Positions 1,607 through 2,134 of a DNA stretch of 64,000 nt are shown in pieces. The position numbers and the translations under genes were made by a program. The stretch is from Bacteroidota bacterium (GTDB taxonomy: Bacteria > Bacteroidota > Bacteroidia > Flavobacteriales_E > Vicingaceae). The stretch is from assembly GCA_013112545.1 (NCBI GenBank), contig JABFGJ010000001.1, positions 186,001 to 250,000 on the forward strand, read 5' to 3'. Within the stretch, counting starts at the first letter, position 1, and each line of letters starts with the position of its first letter. The notes beneath the pieces are model-generated. The model did no database searches, was not told the origin of the DNA, and saw nothing but the letters and a program-made list of their open reading frames with translations.

Positions 1607-1679
1607 TGCGGGGTGGAGCAGTTGGTAGCTCGTCGGGCTCATAACCCGAAGGTCATAGGTTCGAGTCCTGTCCCCGCTA
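1607..1679 (+). tRNA. Initiator tRNA-fMet (CAT)
   Basis: A cloverleaf can be drawn by eye: acceptor 1607-1613 against 1672-1678, D arm with GGTAGCTC, anticodon stem TCGGG/CCCGA around the loop CTCATAA (anticodon CAT), and T arm ATAGG/CCTGT with loop TTCGAGT. Two features mark it as the initiator: the three G:C pairs next to the anticodon loop, and an unpaired first position of the acceptor stem (T1 opposite T72; C:A in E. coli). The 3' CCA is not encoded. A strong terminator follows within a few bases. Confidence 0.92.
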
Positions 1680-1681
1680 CT

Positions 1682-1710
1682 AAAAAGAGCTGATTTTTCA
1701 GCTCTTTTTT
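1682..1710 (+). terminator. Rho-independent terminator of tRNA-fMet
   Basis: A ten-base-pair stem (AAAGAGCTGA / TCAGCTCTTT) with a TTTT loop is followed by a T run, immediately after the tRNA. It lies between the tRNA and the GIY-YIG start codon at 1723, so the GIY-YIG gene needs readthrough or its own promoter. The same hairpin is repeated exactly at 2028-2056. Confidence 0.85.
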
Positions 1711-1722
1711 CATTTAATTTTT

Positions 1723-2004
1723 ATGGAAGAATTTGTAGTTTATATTTTATACTCTGAACAATATTCAAAATCTTATATCGGTTTTACTTCTAATTTAATC
1801 GAAAGATTCAAGTCTCATAATGCCCTCTCTAAAAAAGGCTGGACAATAAAATATAGACCTTGGTATATTATCCATGTTGAGTTTTATTCATTTAAAAAAG
1901 AGGCAATGCAAAGAGAAAAATTCCTCAAAACTGGCGCCGGTAGAGACTGGATTAAAATAAATGTCATGAATAAGGAGGGCTCATATTCGCCGCGGCGAAC
2001 TTAG
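1723..2004 (+). CDS. GIY-YIG nuclease domain protein (UPF0213/YhbQ-like)
   Basis: A 93-aa single-domain GIY-YIG endonuclease. Motif 1 is FVVYILYS plus SYIGFTSNL (the GIY and YIG positions, residues 4-25), the catalytic arginine is in IERFKSHN (about 28), and the conserved glutamate region is KKEAMQREKFLKTGAGRDWI (about 60-80). The substrate is unknown; family members cut or nick DNA. The ORF starts 13 bases after the tRNA-fMet terminator and its last codons run into a second copy of the tRNA 3' part, so gene plus spacer is bracketed by tRNA-derived direct repeats. The final residues (SYSPRRT) are encoded by a GC-rich palindrome at 1986-1999 and look like non-domain read-through. Mobile-cassette behaviour is an inference. 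Confidence 0.8.
   Translation: MEEFVVYILYSEQYSKSYIGFTSNLIERFKSHNALSKKGWTIKYRPWYIIHVEFYSFKKEAMQREKFLKTGAGRDWIKINVMNKEGSYSPRRT
1986..1999. other. GC-rich perfect palindrome within tRNA-fragment copy
   Basis: TTCGCCGCGGCGAA is a perfect 14-base palindrome in otherwise AT-rich DNA. It sits between the GGGCTCATA copy and the T-arm copy, where an intact tRNA would have the 3' side of its anticodon stem and the variable loop. It could be a recognition site, a recombination scar or a small hairpin; the sequence does not decide. Confidence 0.7.
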
Positions 2005-2027
2005 GTTCGAGTCCTGTCCCCGCTACT

Positions 2028-2056
2028 AAAAAGAGCTGATTTTTCAGCTCTTTTTT
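2028..2056 (+). terminator. Duplicated copy of the tRNA-fMet terminator
   Basis: Identical to the hairpin at 1682-1710, lying after the second copy of the tRNA 3' end. It would now terminate transcription coming from the GIY-YIG gene. Confidence 0.8.
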
Positions 2057-2068
2057 CATTTAATTTTT

Positions 2069-2134
2069 ATGGAGGAATTTGTAGTTTATATTTTATACTC
2101 TGAACTTCACTCTAAATCTTATACTGGTCAATAG
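2069..2134 (+). pseudogene. Truncated second GIY-YIG gene (5' fragment)
   Basis: Reading from ATG 2069 gives MEEFVVYILYSE followed by LHSKSYTGQ and then a stop (TAG, 2132-2134), only 21 codons. The first 12 residues equal those of the intact upstream gene, whereas the following SKSYTGQ differs from SKSYIGF and resembles a different member of the family (YTG instead of YIG). The catalytic Arg and Glu regions are missing. This is the remnant of a second, non-identical cassette rather than a simple slippage duplicate of the first. Confidence 0.8.

Follow-up and report, generated by a model that had tools for sequence, protein, structure and literature searches.

The window, that is, the whole 64,000-nucleotide stretch of DNA that was analysed, carries at 1607-2134 a repeat unit of 346 bp, which consists of a terminator, a GIY-YIG nuclease gene and a partial copy of the 3' part of the fMet-tRNA gene. 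The unit stands behind an intact fMet gene, and a second, truncated unit comes after it. The features of the locus were as follows.

1607..1680, + strand: intact tRNA-fMet (CAT), found by ARAGORN and, at the same locus (L005), by Rfam; the host target gene, whose 3' end is restored by the cassette
1681..2026, + strand: complete mobile unit of 346 bp (terminator, ORF and scarred tRNA 3' copy), from the repeat spacing of 346, with boundaries taken from the empty sites of relatives
1682..1709, + strand: hairpin-T-run terminator carried by the unit, from the sequence (inverted repeat); the ORF starts 13 bp downstream
1723..2004, + strand: GIY-YIG nuclease gene, 93 aa, Slx1/UPF0213-like, with the catalytic Y/Y-G/R/H/E positions conserved
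1977..1985, + strand: copy of the 5' strand and loop of the tRNA anticodon arm, GGGCTCATA (equal to tRNA 1635-1643), from the sequence
1986..1999, + strand: 14-bp palindrome TTCGCCGCGGCGAA in place of the 3' strand of the anticodon stem; the ORF reads through it as YSPRR
2002..2026, + strand: copy of the tRNA T arm and acceptor strand, 25/25 identical (recombination core), from the repeat comparison
2028..2055, + strand: second copy of the terminator, the start of the second, truncated unit, from the repeat comparison
2069..2134, + strand: remnant of a second GIY-YIG gene, 21 codons long and cut off ahead of tRNA-Phe, from the sequence

The stretch 1656-1759, which spans the final 25 bases of tRNA-fMet, the terminator and the GIY-YIG ORF up to codon 12, occurs again at 2002-2105 with one mismatch, which agrees with the 104-bp repeat 346 bp downstream reported in the initial annotation. 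The repeat could be extended to 127 bp at 94% identity with a spacing of 346. This length is beyond chance, so the window repeat is real. The initial annotation was also right that an intact nuclease gene lies between the copies (ORF 1723-2004, 93 aa, PF01541 match at E=1.7e-14), that the order within each unit runs from tRNA 3' end through terminator and nuclease gene to a further tRNA 3' end, and that an integrase is absent, as the 346-bp unit contains one ORF only. Neither a tyrosine or serine recombinase nor an HUH tyrosine transposase was found in the unit, which encodes the GIY-YIG protein alone. The second tRNA copy had been described as a repeated 3' end. That description holds, but the copy is longer and scarred: GGGCTCATA is followed by the palindrome TTCGCCGCGGCGAA and then by the T arm. 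The YTG of the truncated gene does not mark a different subtype, as had been proposed, since many close relatives have YTG or YVG at this position.

The nuclease family ranges in size from 78 to 100 aa and comprises the GIY-YIG domain only, with no separate DNA-binding module or other domain. In the family alignment, Y7, Y18, G20 and E65 are invariant and R28 and H32 near-invariant; all catalytic residues of the GIY-YIG superfamily (Tyr, Tyr-x-Gly, Arg, Glu) are present. The predicted model had a pLDDT of 88. The top 11 Foldseek matches were all UPF0213 or Slx1 proteins, with UvrC at rank 14 and I-TevI at rank 23. The predicted fold is thus closer to Slx1/UPF0213 than to UvrC or I-TevI, and the sequence search agrees. 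The gene is under purifying selection, with a median dN/dS of 0.11 over 294 pairs. In a tree of 127 GIY-YIG proteins, built on a short alignment that leaves many forks open, all tRNA-linked proteins fell in one half and 53 non-tRNA proteins in the other. The tRNA types were clustered on this tree, with 30 label changes compared with 54 after shuffling. A strict rule of one nuclease clade per tRNA was rejected, because fMet and a second CAT-anticodon type were interleaved.

Eight GIY-YIG matches were found in the genome of the window, six of them at tRNA genes. Besides the window locus, these were a gene at tRNA-Arg(tct) flanked on either side by scarred copies (L002), a tandem pair of units ahead of tRNA-Pro (L003/L004), at tRNA-Asn a broken unit accompanied by 5' scar copies (L007), and a broken GIY-YIG gene behind tRNA-Met (L008). 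The remaining two were a gene bracketed by repeats (L001) and a match in a long, UvrC-sized reading frame (L006). The survey of the window's family covered 41 genomes, from which other stand-alone GIY-YIG loci were retrieved. At 27 of 101 loci the GIY-YIG gene lay within 250 bp of a tRNA gene on the same strand. The tRNAs were Asn, Arg, Leu, Val, Ala, His, Pro, Met and fMet, and nearly all 27 loci carried 5' or 3' partial tRNA copies.

A wider genome scan returned relatives at 79 loci, mostly in Flavobacteriia and also in Chitinophagaceae and Balneolota. The genus was mostly Flavobacterium; Chryseobacterium, Cloacibacterium, Aquimarina, Aequorivita, Flavisolibacter, Balneola and Gracilimonas (the last belonging to Balneolota) were also represented. 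Nearly all of these loci stood behind a CAT-anticodon tRNA (fMet or the second type), with units of approximately 350-370 bp. They share a scar in which GGGCTCATA is followed by the palindrome TCCGCC-nn-GGCGGA and then the T arm. Many Flavobacterium fMet loci (L009, L021, L028, L031, L048, L050 and others) have two or three intact fMet genes in tandem, and the cassette usually follows the last. Flavobacterium genomes G307, G315, G321 and G325 also have solitary scarred fMet copies, whose distance from the nearest intact fMet gene ranges from several to tens of kb. Members of a separate GIY-YIG clade (motif IVYLLKCSD.TLYTGCTSNLE; L156, L166 and L180, in three genomes) lie 230-510 bp downstream of the tmRNA gene on the same strand; copies of the tmRNA end were looked for near these genes, and none were found. 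There was no cassette match among 50,697 phage records or in IMG/VR, and the only plasmid match was a single weak one in Azospirillum. A phage or plasmid vector was rejected on these grounds.

Scar copies are not restricted to the 3' side. 5' scar copies were also present upstream of tRNA genes; Asn scars of the type GCATCTGA[TCCCGTTCAAACGGGA]AGGGTCC flank the intact gene on both sides at L177, and the fMet sequence CATA[TCCGTCAGCTGACGGA] occurs on both sides at L108. In carriers the tRNA gene is intact and only the second copy is altered, by the palindrome. The place of the hairpin varies with the tRNA: D loop, anticodon arm or T arm. Of the scar copies, 57 of 74 had a hairpin that beat shuffled sequences, as had 3 of 33 intact tRNAs; 57/74 is an upper figure because some of these hairpins are terminators. 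In the fMet scars, the six pairs of the palindrome were kept in 97% of cells, compared with 32-64% in slid controls, and compensatory changes occurred at two pairs. Conservation of the palindrome goes with a variable centre and co-varying arms. New observations are this palindrome within a tRNA arm of the scar copies, kept through compensatory changes, the 5' scar copies upstream, and the Slx1/UPF0213-like character of the protein, which is under purifying selection and has no DNA-binding domain.

Repeats also surround related genes away from tRNAs. Direct repeats bracketed 40 of 62 non-tRNA GIY-YIG genes and 27 of 32 tRNA-type genes, compared with 0 of 47 genes of the window and 8 of 175 random stretches. 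Many of the repeats around the non-tRNA genes are palindromes. Examples are L001, L089, L105, L133, L142, L151, L167, L176 and others. At L001 (G000 C13:17804-18983), CGTCATTGCGAGGAGGTACGACGAAGCAATC occurs five times with at most 2 mismatches, always in a stretch of 1.2 kb around a single GIY-YIG gene; the rest of the genome has no copy.

Within the window's family, 8 of 30 fMet loci had a GIY-YIG gene and 22 did not, and the upstream flanks were conserved. Vertical conservation in all relatives with no empty sites, which the initial annotation had set against its own proposal, was therefore not what was found. The upstream flank of the window is common to G002, G007 and G014, which have the tRNA and terminator only and no unit; their downstream flanks are unlike that of the window, so the window itself is without a two-sided empty site. 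Such sites were found in Flavobacterium, where the fMet gene occurs in essentially all 61 genomes and nearby scar copies in about 10. The filled locus L024 could be compared with the empty loci L256 and L271, whose flanks are 92-94% identical to it over 700 bp on each side. The surplus of L024 is exactly one 367-base unit. The native terminator follows the tRNA in L256 and L271 and follows the scar in L024, where the tRNA is directly trailed by the cassette's own, different terminator. The same pattern was seen between L048 (filled) and L228/L226 (empty). In both the L024 and L048 pairs, the gene is present or absent at otherwise identical alleles, one mark of a homing gene. The pairs show the gain of a unit of approximately 350 bp behind the tRNA gene, which is intact and exactly rebuilt, and the native terminator has been moved behind the scar.

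At another fMet locus of the L024 genome, L029, stands a second unit that is 387/396 identical (97.7%) to the first. The two loci are 70 kb apart and have unrelated flanks. Units also occur in stacks: three units at L049 (99.7-100% identical), seven at L129, and ten tandem 457-bp units behind one fMet gene at L135 (G009 C9), 99.6-100% identical. The L135 array is a very recent amplification. There are arrays in which the last unit is trailed by a different, presumably native, terminator. These data show transfer of units from one tRNA locus to another as well as tandem amplification. The initial annotation had proposed a tRNA-anchored cassette that inserts into the tRNA end and restores it, and the exact empty sites and patchy loci support this; the near-identical unit at two unrelated loci of one genome adds transfer between loci. 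The empty sites, stacks and other tRNAs that it had suggested looking for were present as exact empty sites, stacks of 2-10 units and many tRNA types. Its stacks of non-identical cassettes exist in some cases (the units of L040 are 90% identical), but most stacks are nearly identical repeats. Genome G019 has arrays of scar and terminator without any ORF. At L190 of this genome (1573-1846), tandem tRNA 3' ends with the palindrome TCCCGATAGCTATCGGGA and a terminator stand behind fMet. The ORF-less arrays of L190 are non-autonomous versions of the cassette.

We believe that the unit is probably a minimal cassette that invades tRNA genes: the nuclease would break the tRNA gene, repair would copy the cassette from a donor, and the scar would serve as landing homology. 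We infer that the nuclease itself drives the spread. Read-through from the tRNA would express the small Slx1-like nuclease, which may break the tRNA gene near the anticodon or T arm. The left broken end, with the promoter and the 5' part of the tRNA, would invade a donor copy, and repair synthesis would copy the terminator, the ORF and the scar copy. The 25-30-base T-arm/acceptor core of the scar would then anneal to the broken end on the right. If the process runs in mirror image, copying would go leftwards from the right end and leave 5' scar copies upstream. The palindrome in a tRNA arm of the scar may block its function as a tRNA and may keep it from being targeted or invaded instead of the intact gene. 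When a carrier suffers breaks, out-of-register repair from the sister chromosome would give further units. It follows from this scheme that the scar must keep the 3' part of the tRNA, that native terminators lie at the far end, that arrays grow and that mirror-image 5' scars lie upstream. The pairs of empty and filled sites, the near-identical unit at two loci, the patchy presence at fMet loci, the arrays that end in a different terminator, the GIY-YIG genes near tRNAs with partial copies, the hairpins, the compensatory changes, the selection, the clustering by tRNA type and the SegB precedent count in favour of the invading cassette and on balance make it likely. Several points weigh on it, chief among them the tolerance of the nuclease by carriers. 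Because the intact tRNA persists in carriers, a nuclease that recognises the tRNA would cut its own host, unless its activity is low or the repair is tolerated. With a catalytic domain alone, sequence recognition of one tRNA gene is not obvious. The hairpin positions differ between tRNAs and thus give no single cut site, and the ORF-less arrays of G019 show that units multiply without a nuclease gene in cis.

If the palindrome rather than the tRNA gene is the substrate, the problem of tolerance in carriers does not arise, and this is therefore the leading rival, though we hold it to be rather unlikely. The Slx1-like nuclease would cut the palindrome as a cruciform or single-stranded hairpin, and the unit, with the tRNA 3' core at its ends, would be released or circularised and then recombine over about 30 bp into whichever tRNA gene matches, in a manner likened to the use of the hairpin site by integron cassettes. 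The closest predicted folds are the structure-specific Slx1 and UPF0213, and the palindrome is conserved with a variable centre and co-varying arms, while the frequent, often palindromic repeats around the non-tRNA genes point the same way. The sparing of the intact tRNA and the ORF-less arrays are also accommodated. However, neither a circular form nor excision was seen, 30 bp is short for homologous recombination, and cutting of the palindrome alone leaves the clustering of nuclease clades by tRNA type unexplained.

The nuclease could also be a passenger with another role in the host, the units being spread by RecA-dependent exchange between tRNA repeats together with uptake of foreign DNA. 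tRNA ends are natural homology, ORF-less arrays exist, and identical tandem units, such as the 10 copies of L135, are expected from unequal crossing-over. In ORF-bearing units, however, no cargo other than a GIY-YIG gene occurs, over many tRNA types and in two phyla; this gene is under purifying selection, and there are exact single insertions that bring foreign terminators. We consider a passenger role distinctly unlikely. Cleavage of the tRNA itself (RNA) by the GIY-YIG protein, with the scarred copies as decoy or regulatory RNAs in an addiction-like pair, is very improbable. The scar copies do retain tRNA-like parts and stand before terminators, and for one Slx1-like protein a GIY-YIG/TrmH fusion has pointed to a role connected with RNA (PMC1564403), but most scar copies are 5'- or 3'-truncated without a common fold, and there is no sign here of scar copies as stable RNAs. 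Simple local tandem duplication of the tRNA-nuclease region, followed by decay and vertical inheritance, is what the window alone resembles, but it is ruled out for practical purposes by the exact empty sites, the patchy distribution, the near-identical units at two unrelated loci and the foreign terminators.

The invading cassette resembles several known systems in part. tRNA-integrating islands, satellites and ICEs insert at the 3' end of a tRNA gene, restore it and leave a partial copy at the far end; they encode an integrase and are kilobases long. The cassette shares the restored 3' end and the far-end partial copy, but is approximately 350 bp long and has no integrase. Integron cassettes consist of a small, apparently promoterless ORF with a hairpin-bearing 3' site and are arrayed behind one promoter. 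The small ORF, the hairpin 3' site and the stacked arrays behind one promoter are common to both. The unit described here differs in that it has no tyrosine recombinase or other recombinase gene, its hairpin core is derived from a tRNA and has no attC sequence features, and its cargo is the nuclease itself.

The GIY-YIG nuclease SegB of phage T6 cuts inside tRNA genes and amplifies the tRNA-segB segment (PMC13096335) and is the nearest experimental precedent. Like the free-standing phage GIY-YIG homing endonucleases (SegB, T4/T6; PMC13096335), the cassette has its gene beside tRNA genes and shows tandem amplification of tRNA and nuclease. Unlike SegB, it lies in the chromosome and includes a palindrome-bearing partial copy of the tRNA, whose end it rebuilds, while its protein lacks a DNA-binding domain; the predicted fold is nearer to Slx1 than to I-TevI, and neither the phage records nor IMG/VR gave a match. 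The cassette would work like a free-standing homing nuclease, yet we do not file it as one, since it has no separate DNA-binding module and its target gene is rebuilt. The minimal GIY-YIG domain is shared with the stand-alone Slx1/UPF0213 nucleases (PMC1564403; PDB 1zg2, 1ywl, 7cq4, 6seh), which are the best structural match. The known members are considered repair enzymes, and the papers found describe no mobile cassette among them. In REP elements with RAYT transposases (PMC2817692, PMC8266576), too, a nuclease-type gene lies between short palindromes; the cassette differs in having GIY-YIG instead of an HUH tyrosine transposase and tRNA genes as targets.

As a tentative extension, the Slx1-like GIY-YIG proteins of Bacteroidota and Balneolota might be general mobilisers of short palindromic repeats, an equivalent of RAYT-REP built on an unrelated enzyme. 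On this view the tRNA cassettes would be a branch that parks in tRNA genes, with the palindrome in a tRNA arm as substrate of the nuclease and mobile end of the element. No earlier description of the cassettes was found in the open literature; a prior description is possible, as subscription papers and preprints lay outside the search. With one gene of 80-95 codons and a tRNA-derived scar, the cassette would rank among the smallest self-spreading elements. It would inhabit essential tRNA genes unbroken and spread without an integrase or transposase. How one tRNA gene is found by a nuclease domain that has no DNA-binding module becomes testable, as does the building of cassette arrays by break repair alone. 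The many "GIY-YIG nuclease family" genes that are now filed as repair enzymes would also gain a role.
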